Shown here: positions 12,530 through 64,000 of the stretch, one piece after another
Numbering within the stretch: the first letter of the stretch is position 1
How the letters are laid out: each line of letters begins with the position of its first letter
Assembly: GCA_021292105.1 (NCBI GenBank)
Contig: CM037870.1
Span: 24,630,424 to 24,694,423, forward strand
Source: Anadara kagoshimensis
Lineage: Eukaryota > Mollusca > Bivalvia > Arcoida > Arcidae
Direction: 5' to 3'
Length of the DNA stretch: 64,000 nt
Program-made: the position numbers and the translations under genes
Notes under the pieces: generated by a model
The model's input: the letters and a program-made list of their open reading frames with translations, nothing else
Database searches by the model: none
What the model was told of the DNA's origin: nothing

Positions 12530-12579
12530 GTACAGACCATTCCAAAATTTAACACTGAGCTAACGAAAAGGTGACGACT

Positions 12580-12921
12580 GAATGTTGCATAACGTCGCAT
12601 CAGCAATTTCCCAGCTATTCGCGACGAGAACAATGTTATTAATCTCTATGCATGTGAAGTGCGAGTGTAATGTATGGTCTGCCTTGTACTAGTGCGCACT
12701 CAGGGCGACTTTAACGTGCTAGCTCACTGAGTCAGTACGCCGCAGACAAGCGTACTACTCCCCAAGTCACATTATACTGATAACAGGTGAACTAGTAAAG
12801 GCCAACGACAAGGAAAATTTACTTTTCCAACATGTAGTCTGAGCGGGGCTCGAACTCACAGTGGTAAGAGACCTTGGATTTGTAGACTGTCGTCTTATCC
12901 ATTAGGTCACCTCGGCCTCTG
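12580..12921 (-). mobile_element. tRNA-derived SINE group 2, copy 1 (minus)
   Basis: The right end on the plus strand (about 12841-12921) is a reversed tRNA-like head: GGGGCTCGAACTCACAG is a B box, and TCTTATCCATTAGGTCACC an A box. The body continues left to TTGCATAACGTCGCATCAGC. A second copy with the same order lies at 27776-28127. The insertion sits inside a MITE-B copy and is therefore younger than it. Confidence 0.7.
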
Positions 12922-13038
12922 ATATATTTTTTGCTAGTGACCATAAAGCTGCAAAAAAGAGAGACAGTCAGCAGCTATCGAAATATAGCTTACGATGAGT
13001 AGAGATGAGCTGTCGATATGACGCTAATTCGTTAGCTA

Positions 13039-13244
13039 ATTACATATTATACCAATTTTAATTGTACAGCACTAGACGGCCGTTTCGGAACACAATTCCT
13101 CATCAGTAGTGCTTTGAACCAAAATTGAAATAATTTTTTTTCAAGATGTTGAAAAAATATCCAAAGCACCAATATATATTTTACCAAATTTACCTAAGTA
13201 AATACTTTGTATGAGGGAGTATACCTTAGTTTTTAAGGAATTTA
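13039..13244 (-). mobile_element. Fragment of a hammerhead-bearing retroelement (Penelope-like or retrozyme-like)
   Basis: It shares its body with 21308-21478 and less well with 24307-24420: TTTTACCAAATTTA, GGGAGTATAC and TTAGTTTTTRAGGAATTT occur in the same order (plus-strand reading). All three share the boundary at GGAATTT where complete. It carries an intact-looking hammerhead on the minus strand (13113-13068). Minimal hammerheads are known in Penelope-like elements and animal retrozymes; assignment to either is inference because no reverse transcriptase is present. Confidence 0.5.
13068..13113 (-). ncRNA. Hammerhead ribozyme (minimal type I, short helix III)
   Basis: Read on the minus strand from 13113, the order is: AGCACTA (helix I, 5' strand), the invariant core CTGATGA (13106-13100), a hairpin with stem GGAA/TTCC (13099-13087), the invariant GAAA (13086-13083), a very short helix III (C-GGCC-G), the cleavage triplet GTC (13077-13075), then TAGTGCT, which pairs perfectly with the opening 7 bases. 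Every catalytic consensus position I can check is present. Predicted self-cleavage lies between 13075 and 13074. ACGGCCGT is self-complementary, so two molecules could share helix III. Activity is inferred, not shown. Confidence 0.8.
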
Positions 13245-13537
13245 AGTGTTAAACTTTCGACAGGTCTGTATCGTAAATAAAGGAACAGTGTATTATACAA
13301 CTTGCTTATGTAAGAAATTACGGACTTGATTCATATCAAAGTATATATAATTATGCAATTTCCTCTGGTTCTGTTAGACCACCAAAGCAATTAGTCATCC
13401 ACGATATCAATACAAATAAATACATGTTATCAACAAATAGTACATATTGAATACTAATATATGTACTTTATCAAGGCTCAATAAAGTTTATTGAATTAAA
13501 TATATGATTGAATTCACGGCTTACAATTCATCTAAAT

Positions 13538-21307: not shown

Positions 21308-21478
21308 AGCCAGTGTCAATTCCTCATCAGTAGTGCTTGGACCAAAAGTATGAAACCAAAACTGTTTTCAAGATGTTGAAAAGATTACCAAAGGACCAAA
21401 ATATATTTTACCAAATTTAGCTAAGGACATACTTTGCATAAGGGAGTATACATTAGTTTTTGAGGAATTTCACATTTT
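21308..21478 (-). mobile_element. Second copy of the hammerhead-bearing fragment, ribozyme broken
   Basis: The body from TCCTCATCAGTAGTGCTTGG (plus strand, 21321 on) through TTTTACCAAATTTAGC to TTTTTGAGGAATTT matches 13097-13244. On the minus strand CTGATGA and the 5' strand of helix I survive. The stretch to the next GAAA is enlarged, and the cleavage triplet and 3' strand of helix I (TAGTGC) are absent, so no ribozyme can form. Confidence 0.55.
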
Positions 21479-21782
21479 AATTTACAGAACAATGTTTCAA
21501 ATTCTTTATTTTTTAATGTTTCTTTTAATATCGTTATCAGAAATCAAAGACGCATTTACATGTGCATATATAGACTTATATTATATAAATAATTGTAAAG
21601 TTTGTCAGTTTTAAATAAGATAAAAAAGAACAGCTTCTTTTAAGTTTTATCGGATAACCGAAGACTGAAGTATCGGTTACTGGTCAACAAAAAATTATCA
21701 AGATGCCATTTTAGATAAAAATAGTTTGTTAGTCAACAGAAATTATCAAAATACCATTTTAGATAAAAATTGTCTGTTTGAA

Positions 21783-22534: not shown

Positions 22535-24300
22535 TATCAAAAAAAGGCAACTAAATTCTGTTTGACATGCAAGTTGAACAGATTTATAACCAGAAAGAGA
22601 TTGGTGAGTAAAACCGCAGTGAAAACAGTAACAATATTGTTGGTGTATTTGCAATTTTATTCATCACGTAAAATTTAGATGAACATAATAATCAAACTTT
22701 CACAAATCTCTTCAGATATATAACAGAATTTTAGGAATGTATTTTCTTCAACAATCAACAACAAAATTAACCAAGGCACTTGTAAAAACGAACAAACAAA
22801 CAAACATATAACAAGAAAACGACTTTTTAGCCTGGAAAAAAGTATAATGATGCGAATTTTTGAATACTTAATTTCATTAAAAAAATTTAATATTTAGTCC
22901 AATTTCTCTGAGTGTATATAAGTAATTTATTCTTTGAACGGCCAATTGACATGTGGGTGGGTATTGAACACAAATGAGGTTATGCAGTATCATTGTCTTA
23001 CAAAACTTTAACAAATCTAAGTTTTAAGTGAAATTGGATACCAATGCAAGTGTCCCCAAAACGAACCCCACCTGGGAAATTCATGTTTTATTAACCATAT
23101 GAATGTTTAGAATGGCACATCGTCTGTTCTTGTGAAGTTTCACAAAGATTTGTTAAATGGATTTTGAGTGAAATCGCGGACATCATATTGGTGGAAGAAA
23201 TGGAGTAGACACTGTATGTCCCCACCCCCACCCCCACCACACCCACTTCGTTTTGGTTAAAGTAATGGAATGTAAATGGAATCACGAATCAATGATAATA
23301 AATATATAAAATACAATGTAATCTAACATTGGTCCTCAAATTCATTCAATGAATTATTACATGTATGTAATACAATATATACTTTTCAAACATGGCACAT
23401 TTTCAGTTTAACTGATAAAATGAATAAAAAAATATAACAAAATTTCACTATTAACAGTGACAACAACAACAACAACAACAAACATGGATTTATGTATTTC
23501 AATAACATATGCAGAAATTCAATTTTTCATATACAAATATTCAGAATGCTGTGTTTTTTAACCTTAAAAGAAGATAAATATTGAAAAATCTGAAAATTAT
23601 AAAAAATTATAAAAAAAATTAAAAATTTTGCACATGACAGTAGCACTTCTCAAATGTGTGTCATATAAATGTACCATTTAACGCATTTAAAAAGGGTATA
23701 CATAACATATGCATTTGTTTTGAAACCAAATTTACTAATTCATTACTGAATGTCTTTCAACACCCAAATTCTCTTAATTAAAAAATTCTAAAAATTCTAA
23801 AAATTAAAATACTGCACATGACTATTAATTAAAATTAATATATACATATTCATACATTTATTTAGGAAATTAAATTACAAATTTATCAGTGAATGTGTTC
23901 ATATCATTTGCAAACATTATCAGAATGGAATACCATCTAAACATTAGAATTCTCAATTTCATTAACCTGTGTCAGGAAAAGTCAGCAATACTTGTTTATA
24001 GATCATGTCATCTTATTTATATGGCCATTAATTTTTCTCATGTAAATAAAGATGGAATTTTTGATGTCTTGTTTACGTGTGTAGAAAATATATACAGTCA
24101 AATTGCCATTACCATTTATTCTGTTGTCGTGTGCGGATTTTGAATTTTTATCAAAATAATGCATTCAAAATCATCACATGTCACTGCCATGTACTAACCT
24201 TGAATACACTCTTTCAAAAACATTGACCAAACATTTTGTCAAAAACACAATCAACAAATTGGAAAAAGACAAGTCATGTCATTACTAAACTTGTTTTAAT
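22535..24300. other. AT-rich intergenic DNA
   Basis: No gene recognised. Simple repeats: C/A-rich (CCCCCA)n near 23220-23240 and (CAA)n at about 23462-23482. TTTTATCAAAATAATGCATTCAAAA near 24147-24171 resembles the AT-rich hairpin family at 22445 and 34000. Confidence 0.4.
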
Positions 24301-24306
24301 TTTGTA

Positions 24307-24350
24307 GCACTAGACGGACGTTTTGGAATAAAATTCATCATCTATAGTGC
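24307..24350 (-). pseudogene. Decayed hammerhead ribozyme
   Basis: It aligns base for base with 13069-13112. Helix I arms GCACTA/TAGTGC and the GTC triplet survive, but the core CTGATGA has become TAGATGA and GAAA has become AAAA on the minus strand. Both changes hit invariant catalytic positions, so cleavage is not expected. The flank to about 24420 resembles the rest of the element. Confidence 0.65.
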
Positions 24351-24896
24351 CCATACCAAAATTGAACTTAGAAAAAATAGAAGGACAAAGAAAGTATTTT
24401 ACCAAATATCAGTATGTAGAATGCCTACAGACATTTATAAATTTACTTAGGTGTTCGAAATAAGCAAATGACAATACAGTGTTCATTCCTGAAATTTAGT
24501 TGGTGTGACCATCCTAGCCCAGGTCTTGAAAATACTAGGGCCATATTTTTCTAAAATGGGTCAACATTACAACTTAACTTGGTTTTCTGTCAAAGGGTCA
24601 GTATTTAACAAAGAAAAAAATACATGTATTATAATAAGAAAGATCCAGAACTGGATTAATTCAAAACTCCACTAAAGCTGAAAACATGTACCAGGTTTGG
24701 TACACAGACAGTATTTAGTGAGACACTTATTACTTTTGGGACAATGGTCCCTTCTAGATCGAACACTGCAATGTAGACAAATCATGTACCGTTAGACCTG
24801 TCTTTCAGGCCACTTCTATATAAAGATCACCTTCTTTTAAAGGACATTAAAAAATTATCCCATTTGTTCTTTATTCATGTTATTTACCTGTATTTA

Positions 24897-37473: not shown

Positions 37474-39297
37474 ATTATAACCATATCTTGTTTAGGGATA
37501 TTCCCATAGGGATTCAAAGCCCATTTAATTCAGATAAGGGAAAAGTCATTTTAACCGCATCCCTCCTCCCCTTCTACATCCCAAAATCGGCATAATCGCC
37601 TTTCCTCTCCACACCCTTTAAATTCAATGTTCAAACATTAAAAAAAATCTTAATAAAGGTTTTCCTTTTATTCAGTTATTACAGTTACTCTCAGCCATTC
37701 AAAAGAGTAAAAAACCCAAAACATGAGAACTACTGAATATTACATAACTCACCAAAAACTGACAATACATTAAATAGACAAATACTATACAAATGTTATG
37801 GTTCATCGCACCCTTTTGTTCTTTTGTTCTTTCTTTTTTTGTGTTGTAAACGAAAAATGCCATTTACTAAATGAATTTCCGTTGCTGAGATTCGATCGCG
37901 CGACCAAGAAATCCAAACCTACCAAATCTAACAGGTTTCGTTGCCTTCGTTTTTATGGTCTAAACACTATTTTATAATGAGTTTCTTTGTTGCCATGTCC
38001 ACTGTGAAAAGTCCATTTGTGTTCATAGTATAATGCTAATTGGAGTTCAATGACCATTTTGTCCCATATCAACATGTTGGCCTAATGACCTGGGTTATAT
38101 AATGTCGAGATTTTCCTAAGAACTTGTGAAAATACATGCCGGGCTATGTCCAAAATTTTATAATACCCTTTGTATTTAATGACATAAGTGTCTTAATATT
38201 TATTTAATAGGATTACATAATTCAGTTTTATTATTCTTTGTGTGAATAACATTATATGAAAACCAAAAACTGCTGAAAGCGTGGGGCAGAACGAAACCAT
38301 TTTTACCGAAACGTTATCTGTGACGAATTTATTATAACTAGCTCGCTTCCAACGCGGACAAAATGCCAGTTTAGAAGTAGAATGATATCGTGGACGAAAT
38401 GTAAACTGTCTTGAAATGTGCCCATTTTCCCTCCTCGTCGAATTTATCATACAAATAAAATTTTGTTTCATTATTTTGAAATTTTCGAGTCGTTCTTTCA
38501 TTTTTCTGTCCAGGGGTTTTCCACTCATGATTTAAGACAGTGATTCATCCCCGTTCTGAAAAGAATAACCCATTTTCGACTGCAATATTTTTTGTACCAA
38601 TTGTATTTTTTTGGTGTTAACATATAATAACCATTTCGATTACCCAATGTAATGCAAATGCCATAAACCATTTTTGAATGTATTTTATGATTAAATTAAA
38701 AAAATTGTATATGACACAAAAATTAGGTCTAAGTATATCTGTTCATGGTAATTTACGTGAAGATATTGCTATGTAGCAAACTAGCAATATAAAAAAGTAA
38801 TTTATTATTAAGGCAGATAATTCGGCCTAATAGGTAGTGGAATGAAATTAAATAAAAATTTCATTAATGAAAATAAGAATTGTGAATGTAGTCTGTACAT
38901 ACCAGGAACTATAAAGACAACGTAATTAAAACATCAGGAAATACGCCTGTTCCAGTAGGTGAAATAAATGTATTCCATAATTACTTATAAAGAAATGTAT
39001 TGTATAAATAAATTATAACAAAGTCTTAATTAATGTTGATGTAATCAGCTGTTTATACCCCAGGGGATTATCCTTTGCCATTTTAATCACCATTGCTTTT
39101 CATCTAAATTATTTGACTTGGCATCCCACCCCACCCCACCCCCAGCTACTGAAAGTAGAAACTACATAAGGCATTCGACATCGGTAAAGCAATGCTGAGA
39201 CATTCATATTAATATAATGCTAATTTTTACATTCGTGAACATGCGTTAGTTAATTAAATAACAACAAACTTTAATTATTTTTCTTATGTATTTTCAG
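34750..39297 (+). other. Intron 1 of the innexin gene (4.5 kb)
   Basis: It opens with GTAAGTATAC and ends with a pyrimidine-rich tract and TTTTCAG at 39291-39297. Contents: a short (CATATA)n run near 35490-35512, a CT microsatellite at 37430-37473, a 111-codon minus-strand frame (38528-38193) with no recognisable motif, and a C-rich run near 39127-39144. No transposon boundaries stand out, which contrasts with the rest of the window. Confidence 0.65.
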
Positions 39298-40507
39298 TGT
39301 GGTGTGGATTTTTGGGAGTTGGGCTAGTTGGAATAAGCTCAAAGGAAATGATGATGACGACTGGGTCGATCGGATTAACCATTTATATACAGTAGTGTTG
39401 CTCTGTATTTTCGCCGTATTTACGGGAGGTGGACAATATGTCGGGAACCCGATTGAGTGCTGGTGTCCAGCGCAGTTTACGGGCTCCTATGTCTCGTATA
39501 CAAAATCCTACTGCTGGATTAAAAACACGTACTATATTCCAATGGGAGATGTCATTCCAGTCGCTCACGAGAAGAGAGATTCCGAAGAGATCACCTACTA
39601 TCAGTGGATACCGATCATATTGGTTTTTATGGCGTTTTTATTTAAATTACCATGCCTTGTATGGAGAATGTTGAATGGATATTCTGGAATCAGCTTGGAA
39701 AAAATAGTCAACATGGCAGCGGCAACACAAACAAGCGAGCCAAAGAAACGAAATGAAACCGTCGAACATATAGCAATATACATGGATAGATGGCTTGAAA
39801 CCCACCGACAGTACCACCACAATATTATGGTCAGAATGAAGCAGAGAGCTTCACGGGTATGTTTCTTCTTATGCAACAAACGTGAAGGAACCTATCTTAC
39901 AGGACTCTATTTGTGTGTCAAAATCTTGTACGTTGTCAACATTATATGCCAGTTTTTCATTCTTAACGGTTTCATGGGACACGATTTTTACTCCGCATAC
40001 GGATTGGAGGTTATAAACAGCCTTGTAAATGACGAACCAATGAAAGAGTCGCGTAGATTCCCACGTGTCACTCTCTGTGATTTCGACATTCGTCAGCTTC
40101 AGAACTTGCAGCGATGGACCGTCCAATGTGTCTTGCCCATCAACCTCTTCAACGAAAAAATCTTTATGTTCCTTTGGTTTTGGTTCGTTCTTGTTGCCGT
40201 AGTAACCATTGGAAATTTCATTTTCTGGCTCTGGAGAGTTGTGGTGAAGAGAAACCGCGTGGCCTACATCAAGAAGTTCTTGAAGGTCCGGGACGAGCTT
40301 CATGGCGAGGATGACAAGAAGGTTTGCCGTAAATTTGCCGACGATTATTTGAGAGATGATGGTATTTTCGTATTAAGACTAGTTGCTAGAAATTCAAACG
40401 CCATCTTGCTAACGGACTTAGTTCTAAGTTTATGGGGCATTTACAAAAAGAAGCCATCCATTAAGAAAGCATTGAACAATGACGAGTACACCGAATCGCA
40501 TGCATAG
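39298..40507 (+). CDS. Innexin (gap-junction / hemichannel subunit), main exon
   Basis: With the first exon it encodes 404 residues, a normal innexin length. Innexins form invertebrate gap junctions and plasma-membrane hemichannels. Visible family marks: membrane segment 1 (about 30-47), first extracellular loop with IECWCPAQF and YCW (Cys 56, 58, 74), the signature YYQW at 102-105, segment 2 (about 106-126) with the conserved proline in KLPCLVW, segment 3 (about 205-224), second extracellular loop with Cys 262 and Cys 279 (TLCDFDIRQL; VQCVLPINLFNEKIF), segment 4 (about 290-313), and a cytoplasmic tail of about 90 residues. The strictly conserved extracellular cysteines are all present, and Cys 58 (CWC) is extra. 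There is no ATG where the frame opens; instead a splice acceptor ends at 39297. The frame is intact to TAG at 40505-40507. Which numbered innexin it is cannot be told. Confidence 0.95.
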
Positions 40508-49583: not shown

Positions 49584-52304
49584 CAAAAGAACAATCACTG
49601 CAAGTACCTGGACACCGAGGCTGACAGAACAATCACTACAAGTCTTGGAACACAGACGCTGACAGAACAATCGCTGCAAGTTTGGACCACAGACGCTGAC
49701 AGAACAATCACTGCAAGTATTGGAACACAGACGCTGACAGACAGGATAATTACTACGAGTCCCTGGACGACGAGGCTGACAGAACAATTACTGCAGGCCT
49801 TGGAGTACAGACGCTGCTGACAGAACAATCACTACAAGTCTTGGACCACAGACGCTGACAGAAAAATCAGTACAAGTCTTGGACCACAGACGCTGACAGA
49901 ACAATCACTACAAATCTTGCAACATAGACGCTGACAGAACAATCACTACAAGTCTTGGAACACAGACGCTGACAGAACAATCACTACAAGTCTTGGGACA
50001 CAGACGCTGACAGAACAATTACTACAAGTCTTGGAACACAGACGCTGACAGAACAATCACTACAAGTCTTGGGACACAAACGCTGACAGGACAAGCACTG
50101 CAAGTCTTGGGACACAGACGCTGACAGAAAAATCACTACAAGTCTTGGGACACAGACGCTGACAGGACAATCACTAAAAGTCTTGTGACACAAACGCTGA
50201 CAGGACAATCACTACAAGTCTTGGGACACAGACGCTGATAGAACAATCACTACAAGTCTTAGGACACAGACGCTGATAGAACAATCACTACAAGTCTTTG
50301 AACACAGACGCTGATAGAACAATCACTGTAAGTCTTGGAACACAGACGCTGACAGGACAATCACTACAAGTCTTGGAACACAGACGCTGATAGAACAATC
50401 ACTGCAAGTCTTGGAACACAGACGCTGACAGGACAATCACTACAAGTCTTGTGACACAGACGCTGACAGAACAATCACTACAAGTCTTGTGACACAGACG
50501 CTGACAGGACAATCACTGCAAGTCTTGGGACACAGACCCTGACAGGACAATCACTACAAGTCTTGTGACACAGACGCTGACAGAACAATCACTACAAGTC
50601 TTGTGACACAGACGCTGACAGGACAATCACTGCAAGTCTTGGGACACAGACGCTGACAGGACAATCACTACAAGTGTTGAGGCACAGACACTAACTTGAC
50701 AATCACTACAAGTCGTGGAACACAGACGCTGACAGGACAAGCACTGCAAGTCTTGGACCACAGAGGCTGACTGGACAATTGCTACAGATCTTTGAACACA
50801 GACGCTGACAGAACACTCACTACAAGTCTTAAGACACAGACCCTGACAGGACAATCACTACAAGTCGTGGAACACAGACGCTGACAGAACAATCACTACA
50901 AGTCTTGGGACACAGACGCTGACAGGACAAGCACTGCAAGTCTTGGACCACAGAGGCTGACTGGACAATTGCTACAGATCTTTGAACACAGACGCTGACA
51001 GAACACTCACTACAAGTCTTGGAACACAGACGCTGACAGGACAATCACTTTATGTCTCGGAACACAGACGCAGCTGACAGAACAAGCACTACAAGTCTTT
51101 GAACACAGACGCTGACAGAATAATCATTCCAAATTTTGGAACATGGACGCTATCAGAACAATCACTACCAGTCTTGGAACATGGACGCTAACAGAACAAT
51201 CACTACCAGTCTTGGAGCACAGACGCTGACATAACAATCACTACAAGTCTCGGAACACAGACGCTGCTGACAGAACAATCACTACAAGTCTTGCAACATA
51301 GACGCTGACAGAACAATTACTACAAAGTTTGGACACAGACGCTGCTGACAGAATAATCACTACAAGTCTTTGAACACAGATGCTGACAGGACAATTACTA
51401 CAAAGTTTGGACACAGACGCTGACAGAACAATCACTACAAGTCTTGAAACACAGACGCTGACAGGACAATTACTACAAAGTTTGGACACAGACGCTGACA
51501 GAACAATCACTACACGTCTTGCAACATAGACGCTGACAGAACAATTACAACAAAGTTTGGACACCGACGCTGCTGACAGAACAATCACTACAAGTCTCGG
51601 AACACGGACGCTGCTGATAGAACAATCACTACAAGTCTTGGAACATAGACGCTGACAGAACAATTACTACAAAGTTTGGACACAGACGCTGCTGACAGAA
51701 CAATCACTACAAGTCTTTGAACACAGATGCTGACAGGACAATTACTACAAAGTTTGGACACAGACGCTGACAGAACAATCACTACAAGTCTTGGAACACA
51801 GACGCTGACAGGACAATCACTACAGGTCTTGGGACATAGGTGCTGACAGAACAATCACTACAAGTCTCGGAACACGGACGCTGCTGATAGAACAATCACT
51901 ACAAGTCTCGGAACACGGACGCTGCTGATAGAACAATCACTACAAGTTTTGGAACACAGACGCTGACAGAACAATCACTACAAATCTTGGAACACAGACG
52001 CTGACAGAACAATCACTACAAGTCTTGGAACACAGGCGCTGACAGAACAATCACTACAAGTCTTGGAACACAGACGCTGACAGAACAATCACTACAAGTC
52101 TTGGAACACAGACGCTGACAGAACAATCACTACAAGTCTTGGAACACAGACGCTGACAAAACAATTACTACAGGTCTTTGAACACAGACGCTGACTGGAC
52201 AAGTGCTACAATTCTTGTGACACAGACGCTGACAGAACAATTACTACAAGTCTTGGAACACAGACGCTGCTGATAGAGCAATCACTACAAGTCTTGGAAC
52301 ACAT
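49584..52304 (+). repeat. 38-bp minisatellite, about 70 units
   Basis: The unit runs GACAGAACAATCACTACAAG then TCTTGGAACACAGACGCT. Variants swap GAACAA/GGACAA and AAGTCTTGG/AAAGTTTGG. Many units in 51060-51910 have an extra GCT (41 bp). Higher-order repeats: 114 bp (three units) around 50420-50640, a 190-bp (five-unit) duplication with near-identical blocks starting at 50731 and 50921, and a roughly 347-bp repeat with matching blocks at 51341 and 51688. Minus-strand frames rich in SVCVPRLVVIVLSA are repeat artefacts: 38 is not a multiple of three. Confidence 0.95.
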
Positions 52305-58396: not shown

Positions 58397-60310
58397 GGCA
58401 TGTTTGTTTTTACTTTGCTTTGTGATTGCGATTTAGACATGGTTTGTTTTCACTTTGATTTGTGATTATGATTGGGACATGGATTGGTATGGTTTTTTTT
58501 TACTTTGCTTTGGGATTGTGGTTTGGACATGGATTTGTTTATTTGTTTTACTTTGATTTGTGATTATGATTTCGACATGGATTAGTATGTTTGTTTTCAC
58601 TTTGCTTTGTGATTGTGGTTTGGACATGGATTGGTATGTTTGTTTTCACTTTGCTTTGTGGTTGTGGTTTAAACATAGATTGGTATGTTTGTTTTTACTT
58701 TGCTTTGGGATTATGGTTTGGACATAGATTGGTATGTTTGTTTTCACTTTGCTTTGTGGTTGTGGTTTGGACATGGATTGGTATGTTTGTTTTTACTTTG
58801 CTTTGTGATTGTGGTTTGGACATGGAGTGGTATGTTTGTTTTCACTTTGCTTTGTGGTTGTGGTTTGGACAGGGATTGGTATTTTTTTTTTACTTTGCTT
58901 TGTGATTGTGGTTTGGACATGGATTGATATGTTTGTTTTTACTTTGCTTCGGGATTGTGATTAAGACATGCATTGGTATGTTTGTTTTACTTTGATTTGT
59001 GATTATGATTTGGACATGGATTAGTATGTTTGTTTTTACTTTGATTTGTGATTGTGATTTGGACATAGATTGGTATGTTTGTTTTTACTTTGCTTTGGGA
59101 TTATGATTTGGACGTAGATTGGTATGTTTGTTTTCACTTTGCTTTGGGATTATTATTTGGACATGGATTAGTATGTTTGTTTTCACTTTGCTTTGGGATT
59201 GTTATTTGGACATGGAGTGGTATGTTTGTTTTGACTTTGCTTTGTGATTGTGGTTTGGACATGGATTGGTATGTTTGTTTTTACTTTGCTTTGGGATTAT
59301 GATTTGGACATAGATTGGTATGTTTGTTTTCACTTTGCTTTGTGGTTGTGGTTTGGACATGGATTGGTATGTTTGTTTTTACTTTGCTTTGGGATTATGA
59401 TTTGGACATGGAGTGGTATCTTTGTTTTCACTTTGCTTTGTGATTGTGGTTTGGACATGGATTGGTATGTTTGTTTTGACTTTGCTTTGGGATTATTATT
59501 TGGACATGAATTGGTATGTTTGTTTTTACTTTGCTTTGGGATTATGATTTGGACATCGATTGGTATGTTTGTTTTCACTTTGCTTTGGCATTATTATTTG
59601 GACATGGATTGTTATGTTTGTTTTCACTTTGCTTTGTAATTGTGGTTTGGACATGGATTGGTATGTTTGTATTTACTTTGATTTGTGATTGTGATTTTGA
59701 CAGGGAGTGGTATGTTTGTTTTTACTTTGCTTTGTGGTTATGATTTGGACATGGATTGGTATGTTTGTTTTCACTTTGCTTTGCGATTGTGGTTTGAACA
59801 TGGAGTGGTATGTTTGTTTTTACTTTGATTTGTGATTGTGATTTTGACAGAGATTGGTATGTTTGTTTTTACTTTGCTTTGTGATTGTGGTTTTGACATG
59901 GATTGGTATGTTTGTTTTTACTTTGCTTCGGGATTGTGATTTAGACATGGATTAGTTTGCTTGTATTTACTTTGCTTTGGGATTGTGATTTAGACATGGA
60001 TTAGTATGTTTGTTTTTACTTTGCTTTGGGATTGTGATTTAGACATGGATTAGTACGTATGTTTTACTTTGCTTTCGAATTGTGATTTAAACATGGATTA
60101 GTATGTTTGTTTTTACTTTGCTTTGGAATTGTGATTAAGACATGGATTGGTATGTTTGTTTTCACTTTGCTTTGGGATTATTATTTGGACTTGGATTGGT
60201 ATGTTTGTTTTTACTTTGCTTTGGGATTGTGGTTTAGATATGGATTGGTATGTTTGTTTTGCTATGCTTAGTGGTTGTGGTTTGGACATGGAGTGGTATG
60301 TTTGTATTTA
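58397..60310 (+). repeat. 49-bp minisatellite, about 39 units
   Basis: Unit TTGGTATGTTTGTTTTCACT then TTGCTTTGTGATTGTGGTTT and GGACATGGA, spaced exactly 49 bp where clean (e.g. 58631 to 58680). The plus strand is strongly G+T-rich. Apparent proteins rich in WYVCFHFALWLWFG are repeat artefacts: the period is not a multiple of three. Unit variants (GTGATTGTGG, GGGATTATGA, GGGATTATTA) are interspersed, not clustered. Confidence 0.95.
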
Positions 60311-60539: not shown

Positions 60540-63500
60540 CATGCTAAGTAGAGTTTTTTACACATGTTAACATTTTTGCCATTCATGGCAAAGTACAACG
60601 GAGACACACAAGAGCAAGAACGCTGTTTGGTAGAGCTTTATACACATGTTAATATTTTTGCCAATGATGACAAAGTACAAAGAAGACATACAAGAGTAAG
60701 AACGCTGCTTGGTAGAGCTTTATACACATGTTAACATTTTTGCCATTCATGGCAAAGTACAAAGGAGACACACACGAGTAAGAACGCTGCTTGCTAGAGC
60801 TTTATACACATGTTAATTTTTTGCAAATGATTGCAAAGTACAAAGAAGAAACACAAGAGTAAGAACGCTGCTTGGTAGATCTTTATACACATGTTAACAT
60901 TTTTGCGAATAATGGCAAAGTACAAAGAAGAGAGTGAGTGAGTGAGTAATAGTGTTTAACGTCCCAGTCATGAATATTTCATTTATATCGAGACGTCGCC
61001 AGCTATAGGCGAAGGTGCAGAAATTTTGCCTGTGCGTTGCGCTTATGGCATTATACAGCAGGGTTCTTTAGCGTGCCAAGCCCACCGTGACACGGGACCT
61101 CGTTTATTTTAAGTTCCCATCCGAAAGAACCGTGGCTTTCATTTCGTAATGCCGAGTGCTTGGCGAAAGAACAGTCACTACCCACTTTCAAGTCTTGGGT
61201 CAGACCCGGCCGGGGTTCGAACCCACGACCTCCCACTACAGAGCGAGCACTCTACCAACTGAGCTACCGTAGTAGTAACAAAGAAGAAACACAAGAGCAA
61301 GAACGCTGCTTGGTAGAGCTTTATACACATGTTAACATTTTTGCCAATTATGGCAAAGTACAAAGGAGACACACAAGAGCAAGAACGCTGTTTGGTAGAG
61401 CTTTATACACATGTTAACATTTTTGCCAATGATGGCAAAGTACAAAGGAGAGACACAAGAGTAAGAACGCTGCTTGGTAGAGCTTTATAAACATGTTAAC
61501 ATTTTTGCCAATTATGGCAAAGTACAAAGGAGAGACACAAGAGTAAGAACGCTGCTTAGTAGAGCTTTATAAACATGTTAACATTTTTGCCAATTATGGC
61601 AAAGTACAAAGGAGACACACAAGAGCAAGAACGCTGCTTGGTAGAGCTTTATACACATGTTAACATTTTTGCCAATTATGGCAACGTACAAAGGAGACAC
61701 ACAAGAGTAAGAACGCTGCTTGGTAGAGCTTTATACAGATGTTAACATTTTTGCCAATTATGGCAACGTACAAAGGAGACACACAAGAGCAAGAACGCTG
61801 CTTGGTAGAGCTTTATACACATGTTAACATTTTTGCCAATGATGGCAAAGTACATAGGAGACACACATGAGCAATAACGCTGCTTAGTAGAGCTTTATAC
61901 ATATACACATATTGACATTTTTGCCAATGATGGCAAAGTAAAAAAGGAGACACAAGAGCAAGAACGCTGCTTGGTAGAGCTTTATACACGTGTTAACATT
62001 TTTGCCAATTATGGCAAAGTACAAAGGAGACACACAAGAGCAAGAACGCTGCTTGGTAGAGGTTTATAAACATGATAACATTTTGCCAATGATGGCAACG
62101 TACAAAGGAGACACACAAGAGCAAGAACGCTGCTTGGTAGAGCTTTATAAACATGGTAACATTTTTGCCAATTATGACAACGTACAAAGGAGACACACAA
62201 GAGCAAGAACGCTGCTTGGTAGAGGTTTATAAACATGGTAACATTTTGCCAATTATGGCAACGTACAAAGGAGACACACAAGAGCAAGAACGCTGCTTGG
62301 TAGAGGTTTATAAACATGGTAACATTTTTGCCAATTATGGCAAAGTACAAAGGAGACACACAAGAGCAAGAACGTTGCTTTGTAGAGCTTTATACACATG
62401 TTAACATTTTTGCCAATGATGACAACGTACAAAGGAGACACACAAGAGCAAGAACGCTGCTTGGTAGAGCTTTATAAACATGGTAACATTTTTGCCAATT
62501 ATGGCAAAGTACAAAGGAGACACACAAGAGCAAGAACGCTGCTTAGTAGAGGATTATAAACATGGTAACATTTTTGCCAATGATAGCAAAGTACAAATGA
62601 GACACACAAGAGCAAGAACGCTGCTTGGTAGAGCTTTATACACATGTTAACATTTTTGCCAATTATGGCAAAGTACAAAGGAGAGACACAAGAGCAAGAA
62701 CGCTGCTTGGTAGAGGTTTATAAACATGATAACATTTTGCCAATGATGGCAACGTACAAAGGAGACACACAAGAGCAAGAACGCTGCTTGGTAGAGCTTT
62801 ATAAACATGGTAACATTTTTGCCAATTATGGCAAAGTACAAAGGAGACACACAAGAGCAAGAACGCTGCTTAGTAGAGGTTTATACAGATGTTAACATTT
62901 TTGCCAATTATGGCAACGTACAAAGGAGACACACAAGAGCAAGAACGCTGCTTGGTAGAGCTTTATACACATGTTAACATTTTTGCCAATGATGGCAAAG
63001 TACATAGGAGACACACATGAGCAATAACGCTGCTTAGTAGAGCTTTATACATATACACATATTGACATTTTTGCCAATGCTGGCAAAGTGAAAAAGGAGA
63101 CACAAGAGCAAGAACGCTGCTTGGTAGAGCTTTATACACGTGTTAACATTTTTGCCAATTATGGCAAAGTACAAAGGAGACACACAAGAGCAAGAACGCT
63201 GCTTGGTAGAGGTTTATAAACATGATAACATTTTGCCAATGATGGCAACGTACAAAGGAGACACACAAGAGCAAGAACGCTGCTTGGTAGAGCTTTATAA
63301 ACATGGTAACATTTTTGCCAATGATAGCAAAGTACAAAGGAGACACACAAGAGCAAGAACGCTGCTTGGTAGAGGTTTATAAACATGATAACATTTTGCC
63401 AATGATGGCAACGTACAAAGGAGACACACAAGAGCAAGAACGCTGCTTGGTAGAGCTTTATAAACATGGTAACATTTTTGCCAATTATGGCAAAGTACAA

Positions 63501-64000
63501 AGGAGACACACAAGAGCAAGAACGCTGCTTAGTAGAGGTTTATAAACATGGTAACATTTTTGCCAATGATAGCAAAGTACAAATGAGACACACAAGAGCA
63601 AGAACGCTGCTTGGTAGAGCTTTATACACATGTTAACATTTTTGCCAATTATGGCAAAGTACAAAGGAGAGACACAAGAGTAAGAACGCTGCTTAGTAGA
63701 GCTTTATAAACATGTTAACATTTTTGCCAATGATGGCAAAGTACAAAGGAGACACACGCTGCTTAGTAGAGGTTTATAAACATGGTAACAATTATGGCAA
63801 AGTACAAATGAGACATACAAGAGCAAGAACGCTGCTTGGTAGAGCTTTATACACGTGTTACCATTTTTGCCAATGATGGCAAAGTACAAATGAGACACAC
63901 AAGAGCAAGCAAGAACGCTGCTTAGTAGAGCTTTATACACATTTTAACATTTTGCCAATGATGACAAAGTACAATGGAGACACACAAGAGCAAGAACGCT
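60540..64000 (+). repeat. 82-bp satellite array running off the window end
   Basis: Unit CATGTTAACATTTTTGCCAA then TTATGGCAAAGTACAAAGGA, GACACACAAGAGCAAGAACG and CTGCTTGGTAGAGCTTTATA plus CA: 82 bp. About 37 units plus one SINE insertion. It includes a dyad TTTGCCA-NNNN-TGGCAAA. About 440 bp from 61731 recurs at 62881, a shift of exactly 1150 bp (about 14 units), sharing rare variants such as GAGCAATAACGC and a TATACATATACACAT insertion. The array continues past 64000. Confidence 0.95.
60932..61277 (-). mobile_element. SINE group 1 inserted in the 82-bp array, 10-bp target duplication
   Basis: ACAAAGAAGA, part of the satellite unit, is found directly left (60922-60931) and right (61278-61287). 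The element begins on the plus strand with (GAGT)n and TAATAGTGTTTAACGTCCC and ends CTACCAACTGAGCTACCGTA. The reversed head GGGGTTCGAACCCACGACC is intact. The satellite unit resumes in register after the insertion. Confidence 0.95.

Follow-up and report, generated by a model that had tools for sequence, protein, structure and literature searches.

What is a hammerhead ribozyme motif doing in a short non-coding fragment of a bivalve genome and, if it belongs to a mobile element, how is that element copied? The motif lies on the minus strand of a 64,000-nucleotide stretch of Anadara kagoshimensis DNA (assembly GCA_021292105.1, contig CM037870.1, positions 24,630,424 to 24,694,423), hereafter "the window". 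Our reading of the whole, held with high confidence, is that the fragment is a monomeric copy, old and 5'-truncated, of a metazoan non-LTR retrozyme, a 339-bp non-coding retroelement with thousands of copies, for which a copying route is proposed below.

A type I hammerhead motif on the minus strand

The initial annotation had described a minus-strand hammerhead with all of its parts in order, cut between 13075 and 13074. The core and the three helices were located where it had put them, and the predicted cleavage site was correctly placed. The parts are as follows.

13068..13113, minus strand: type I hammerhead ribozyme, predicted cut between 13075 and 13074 (sequence reading, Rfam model match, three-helix scan)
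13107..13113, minus strand: AGCACTA, 5' strand of helix I (sequence reading)
13100..13106, minus strand: CTGATGA, catalytic core (sequence reading, core-pattern search)
13087..13099, minus strand: helix II, GGAA (13099-13096) with TTCC (13090-13087), loop TTGTG (sequence reading, copy table)
13076..13086, minus strand: GAA (13086-13084) and helix III, ACGGCCGT (13083-13076) (sequence reading)
13068..13074, minus strand: TAGTGCT, 3' strand of helix I (sequence reading)

Read from 13113 to 13068, the order is AGCACTA, CTGATGA, GGAA, TTGTG, TTCC, GAA, ACGGCCGT, C and, beyond the predicted cut, TAGTGCT. Helix I is made of seven Watson-Crick pairs between AGCACTA (13113-13107) and TAGTGCT (13074-13068), C17 is base 13075, and cleavage of the minus strand is predicted between 13075 and 13074. 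Helix III, ACGGCCGT, amounts to two pairs (A-T and C-G) around a palindromic GGCC loop, while the helix II loop is TTGTG in this copy and TTGTA in most of the tabulated family copies. Sequence reading and scan found the CTGANGA/GAAA core, the cleavage triplet, three helices and an open helix I, which characterize the type I hammerhead. By this anatomy the motif is a type I hammerhead, for which self-cleavage is predicted.

Chance resemblance, Rfam matches and folding

A chance resemblance to a hammerhead has to be weighed at this point. Searched without the helices, the loose core pattern was matched twice in the window, where 0.75 matches are expected, so that taken alone it is weak evidence, and the free folding of the motif region is not unusual either. 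Against chance, a three-helix scan demanding the core together with a helix I of at least 5 bp, a helix II of at least 3 and a helix III of at least 2 gave one match in the window and one in total across 200 dinucleotide-shuffled windows, and the match to the Rfam hammerhead model RF00163 spans the full model. Decisive against a chance string is the recurrence of the core; with two loop bases left free, it occurs 3,286 times in the genome searched (1.115 Gb, 36 contigs), and the reversed control occurs 0 times. These 3,286 copies demonstrate a repeat, not by themselves a ribozyme. We regard a chance resemblance as extremely improbable.

In the covariance-model check proposed by the initial annotation, a search of 101 bases gave a full-length RF00163 match (model positions 1-45; 28.1 bits, E 1.5e-5), but the score did not reach the curated cut-off of 34, which is a curation threshold and stands outside the definition of the ribozyme, our classification being made by anatomy. 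No hammerhead match was obtained at gathering level over the whole window, nor at E<=10 in a 601-base stretch. These misses on longer stretches look like filter losses, because the copy at locus L012 was also missed within 339 bases and matched, again with 28.1 bits, within 98 bases.

Free folding of 63 bases around the motif gave z -0.63, with 49 of 200 shuffles equally stable and a minimum that differs from the active fold; it neither supports nor excludes the ribozyme. When the window ribozyme is folded alone, with nested helices only, a competing hairpin (-12.6 kcal/mol) is favoured over the active fold (-7.0 kcal/mol), which fits a dimer-assisted ribozyme, without proving one. The GGCC loop of helix III is kept in 82 of 119 hammerhead-bearing copies, and pairing of helix III between two ribozyme molecules is therefore possible. 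In the copy table, read by eye, mostly scattered single changes are seen; since no compensatory change was noticed among the tabulated copies, the fold rests on the motif rather than on covariation.

A 339-bp repeat family

A 201-base query around the motif gave at least 41 matches with an identity of 87% or higher, one of them the query locus (40 of 5,003 first-look candidates were scored). The exact 17-base tail at the 3' end of the element occurs 8,730 times in the genome, and its reversed control 0 times. Family copies are single or tandem, and it is from tandem loci such as L012, where three units, the first of them truncated, follow one another at intervals of about 339 bp, that the non-coding unit of 339 bp was defined; L029 holds five units. 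In unit coordinates (u), the core occupies u272-303, the cut is predicted after u303 and the unit ends 36 nt further, at u339. The unit has a GC content of 34%, and its longest stop-free frame over three joined units is 49 codons. Its ends are unlike each other, no terminal repeats were seen in it, and single copies end without one. Of the 119 copies with a hammerhead, 68 keep the full motif with helix I; copies selected by exact core or by similarity are abundant in this sample. Just 5 of 41 sampled arrays carry two or more exact cores; therefore, few of the sampled loci could yield unit RNAs.

A subfamily was noticed at L027, with a unit of about 292 bp whose first part is different. In its core the CTGA has T replaced by C, helix III carries GACC, and a direct repeat of 37 bp flanks it.

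Among the features that identify metazoan non-LTR retrozymes, a type I hammerhead within a repeat of about 150-450 bp with less than 50% GC, many copies from monomers to tandems, and the lack of ORF and LTR were found here, and judged by its sequence the family is a further member of that known class. A hint at retrozymes in the initial annotation is thereby borne out, the family having thousands of copies and a type I hammerhead with neither ORF nor LTR. The hammerhead is of the retrozyme kind rather than of the minimal Penelope-like kind: in the predicted circular fold of the reference unit, a 1x5 internal loop is followed by a further stem, Ib, and BLAST of the unit against six Penelope-like 3' regions gave no match. 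Penelope-like elements encode a reverse transcriptase and a GIY-YIG endonuclease, and the unit has no ORF of that size. Folded as a 339-nt circle, the unit showed no excess stability (z +0.16; 55 of 100 shuffles as stable).

The core strings were absent from viral contigs and from bacterial and archaeal genomes, and BLAST of the locus against plasmids gave no match; these collections are not animal, and both results are thus uninformative on relatives. Among openly licensed PMC papers, a body of literature without most subscription journals, we recognized no treatment of this family.

The window copies and their surroundings

Three members of the family lie in the window, the second and third being additional to the initial annotation.

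13039..13255, minus strand: 5'-truncated retrozyme copy, unit positions 119-339, 217 bp, 87% identical to the reference unit
13039..13074, minus strand: 36-nt tail of this copy, from the predicted cut to the usual 3' end of the element (...GGTATAATATGTAAT) (copy alignments)
21317..21493, minus strand: second copy, unit positions 109-285, stopping inside loop II, ribozyme incomplete
24293..24363, minus strand: third fragment, decayed, unit positions 253-323, core mutated

The 5' edge of the first copy is uncertain by about 15 bases. Its 217 bp agree with an earlier description as a fragment of roughly 200 bp lacking coding capacity, and the sole ATG ORF of at least 20 codons that overlaps 13000-13300 has 22 codons. 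Compared with the reference unit, the copy differs at 1 of 46 positions in the ribozyme and at 27 of 176 elsewhere, a contrast that is biased by the copy having been picked for its intact ribozyme. About 1.35 Mb away, L002 is a 92% duplicate of the window locus over about 1.2 kb, with the ribozyme altered in GAAA and in the helix III loop. The window copy, a single unit with an intact ribozyme motif, is probably a relic, because one unit alone cannot release a monomer.

Other repeats share the window. Adjoining the retrozyme, the minus strand at 12579-12919 carries a repeat with a tRNA-like stretch that is similar in L024 (82%) and, by eye, in L091; it resembles a tRNA-derived SINE, and ARAGORN called no tRNA there. 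Long tandem arrays with periods of 38, 49 and 82 bp occupy 49588-52303, 58442-60310 and 61278-64000, and an innexin ORF lies at 39275-40507 (Pfam E 6.2e-99).

Copy ends and insertion sites

Copy ends were read from two samples, with array ends taken as BLAST edges, accurate to a few bases. The first consists of 41 core-bearing arrays in 40 loci, taken around the first 100 core places listed, all on a single contig (C1). In 33 of these arrays the 3' end falls at u338/339 (31 of 38 after three duplicate-looking locus pairs were merged), the other eight ending at u244, 289, 314, 317, 322, 330 (twice) and 334, and the 5' starts are scattered from u1 to u283. The second sample is made of 21 tails in 20 regions, drawn from the first 25 tail places listed so as to be new loci without an adjacent exact core. 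Retrozyme sequence lies directly upstream of all 21 tails, four of which run on into a next unit, and no other element with the 17-base tail was found among them. The 5' edges in this sample are variable where in view, leaving down to about 25 nt of element; at L080 and L086 the match reaches the edge of the stretch and the 5' end is out of view. A Helitron origin was set aside, the 5' ends being scattered.

The position of these ends relative to the ribozyme cut bears on the template. If cleaved linear monomers were copied, ends would be expected at u303 and full copies would start at u304. Yet none of 161 unit matches in 88 loci ends around the cut (u298-308), so the templates would carry both sides of it, being either circles or uncleaved multimers. 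On the 5' side, four of the 161 matches start at u298-310 (L014, L081, L084 and L070), one of them cut by a stretch edge and none at u304; as the core-chosen sample is blind to single copies starting at u304, the evidence on this side comes mostly from the 20 tail regions, one of which starts at u302. Reverse transcription thus seems, from the sequence of the ends, to start inside circular or multimeric RNA. In arrays the unit-to-unit junctions u339/u1 are contiguous, which fits a reverse transcriptase lapping a circle, and a multimeric transcript would explain them equally well.

Loop II also appears among the ends. Nine of the 161 unit matches begin at u279-284, four of these in the 20 tail regions, and two copies stop at u285 (the second window copy) and u289. 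This loop may be a hotspot of breakage, or its A/T-rich letters may match A/T-rich targets.

At the insertion sites, the first base after the end is a T in 87% of 54 distinct flanks, against a background of 34%. The next unit begins with T as well, hence the preference may reflect either target choice or one-base primer pairing. No poly-A or simple-repeat tail is present at the printed array ends. Target-site duplications are expected of target-primed insertion. They were rare in a formal scan, in which 3 of 71 arrays, one of them sitting inside a tandem repeat, scored at least 11; no score of that size came from 346 mismatched pairings. By eye, duplications of 37 bp (L027), about 3 bp (L089), about 2 bp (L048) and 0-1 bp (L018) were read, and at L033, in an ambiguous reading, comparison with one paralogue points to about 7 bp lost on balance.

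Proposed copying route

What is seen here is the family, its unit, the tandem arrays, a 3' end that prevails 36 nt downstream of the predicted cut, and the scatter of 5' ends. Perhaps, as published work on other animals suggests, tandem copies would be transcribed, the transcripts would be cut into monomers by the hammerhead, and the monomers would be closed into circles by a host RNA ligase. From the copy ends we infer the rest. With a nicked T/A-rich target as primer, a helper reverse transcriptase would begin at a single site within a circular or multimeric template, unit position 339, and its runs of variable length would leave truncated copies, or tandem arrays when it goes round more than once.

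Alternatively, the family could be a satellite, its repeats having spread by recombination and duplication rather than by reverse transcription. Tandem arrays are indeed present, and some copies have moved within larger duplications, as with the 92% identity of L002 over about 1.2 kb and three locus pairs that share flanks. This is disfavoured because the 3' end is shared; the copies are dispersed, with unrelated flanks, one common 3' end and scattered 5' ends, and L018 contains a nested insertion. We thus consider the satellite explanation very unlikely and retain reverse transcription as the copying mode.

Candidate helpers

If the retrozyme is copied by a helper, a Penelope-like element (PLE) whose reverse transcriptase starts internally, 3' of the hammerhead, is a possible mobilizer, which we advance tentatively. 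At least 50 genomic matches to the GIY-YIG endonuclease were listed, with 150 of 248 candidates scored, and at L069 a frame of 762 residues carries both reverse transcriptase and GIY-YIG domains. By motif reading, a hammerhead-like core with a paired helix I lies downstream of the endonuclease in five of seven PLE loci: about 90-110 nt past the ORF stop in L069, L091, L092 and L093, and, for the core, about 800 nt past the GIY-YIG stop in L094. The hammerhead-like motif of L095 is degenerate (by eye), and L090 has none in the stretch read. In the L094 family, 43 of 46 other matches (40 of 190 candidates scored) end 46 nt past the predicted cut. In vitro, reverse transcription by an Anolis PLE starts internally, 3' of the hammerhead cut (PMC11167929).

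Several observations speak against a PLE. The similarity between the tails of the L094 family and the retrozyme is weak, its score being reached by 2.3% of mononucleotide shuffles (115 of 5000) and 9.1% of dinucleotide shuffles (453 of 5000), and the L093-type tail has no similarity to the retrozyme tail; L093-type ends are blurred, probably by TA repeats. The L094 family often forms outward-facing inverted pairs (11 by our own count, four of them 0.7-2.2 kb apart), whereas retrozymes within 40 nt of each other show one outward pair, the nested insertion in L018, and retrozyme neighbours at 0.5-2.1 kb are 8 outward and 5 inward. Two PLE hammerhead-like motifs were tested with Rfam and neither was recognized. 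The Anolis hammerhead, moreover, was dispensable for insertion in vitro (PMC11167929).

Two further features of these PLEs were noted. L069 carries a minimal hammerhead on both strands, in its inverted copies, and the L094 family shows, by eye, a zinc-finger-like C/H spacing after the GIY-YIG domain, followed by the hammerhead-like core.

A LINE or another non-LTR element recognizing the 3' tail could also be the mobilizer. LINEs and SINEs classically combine one fixed 3' end with 5' truncation at varying points, a pattern that retrozyme copies show. On the other hand, the tail was on no other element in the 21 sampled tails, a sample that a low-copy partner would escape, poly-A or simple-repeat tails are absent from the printed ends, and target duplications were mostly not found. 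A LINE helper thus appears rather unlikely. We tentatively place a PLE ahead of a LINE as helper of the retrozyme, with an L094-type PLE as a candidate.

A wider proposal may be ventured, doubtful as it is: animal retrozymes would be copied by PLE reverse transcriptases whose start within the RNA circle is fixed immediately 3' of the hammerhead, and a one-base primer pairing would be provided by the T that occurs both in the target (87% at +1) and at the beginning of the next unit. If this is true, the genomic 3' end would be the footprint of internal initiation on the circle, and the missing helper of animal retrozymes would be named.

The class of element is already known; it is the uniform 3' end that gives a clue to the copying mode. 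A 2020 review states that animal retrozymes have no conserved motif revealing which autonomous element moves them (PMC7761336). In one genome, most sampled copies have a single 3' end in common, whose distance to the ribozyme cut is fixed, and their layout resembles that of a Penelope-like family resident in the same genome, so that the question of the helper becomes directly testable biochemically.

Comparison with known systems

In the passages of PMC10886601 consulted, retrozymes are mentioned only as non-autonomous LTR elements. Plant LTR retrozymes share with the metazoan kind their non-autonomy, a hammerhead and circular RNA intermediates, and differ in having type III hammerheads within LTRs, circles of 600-800 nt, a primer-binding site and a polypurine tract (PMC7229834).

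Metazoan non-LTR retrozymes were described by Cervera and de la Pena in 2020, with an example from the mussel Mytilus galloprovincialis (PMC7229834). They are expressed as linear and circular monomer RNA, and their target-site duplications, when present, are longer than 4 bp. The mussel family is the nearest in type to ours; it too is a non-coding repeat, low in GC and a few hundred bp long, with a type I hammerhead and, as here, metazoan retrozymes occur in thousands of copies, single or tandem, without LTR. The unit of 339 bp compares with about 350-390 bp in mussel, a comparison made by description. The prevailing 3' end measured here, 36 nt past the cut, is not among the features given for metazoan retrozymes in the parts of PMC7229834 consulted. 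Circles are called "highly self-paired" in the literature, whereas the unit here, folded as a 339-nt circle, is no more stable than its shuffles.

Penelope-like elements with minimal hammerheads are described in PMC7761336. The retrozyme studied here is unlike them in lacking an ORF, in its two-pair helix III and in the stem Ib of its unit fold, and it does not typically form outward inverted pairs. What it has in common with Penelope-like elements, as described in PMC7761336 and PMC11167929, is a hammerhead near the 3' terminus, an end shortly past the cut, and tandem or partial-tandem copies.
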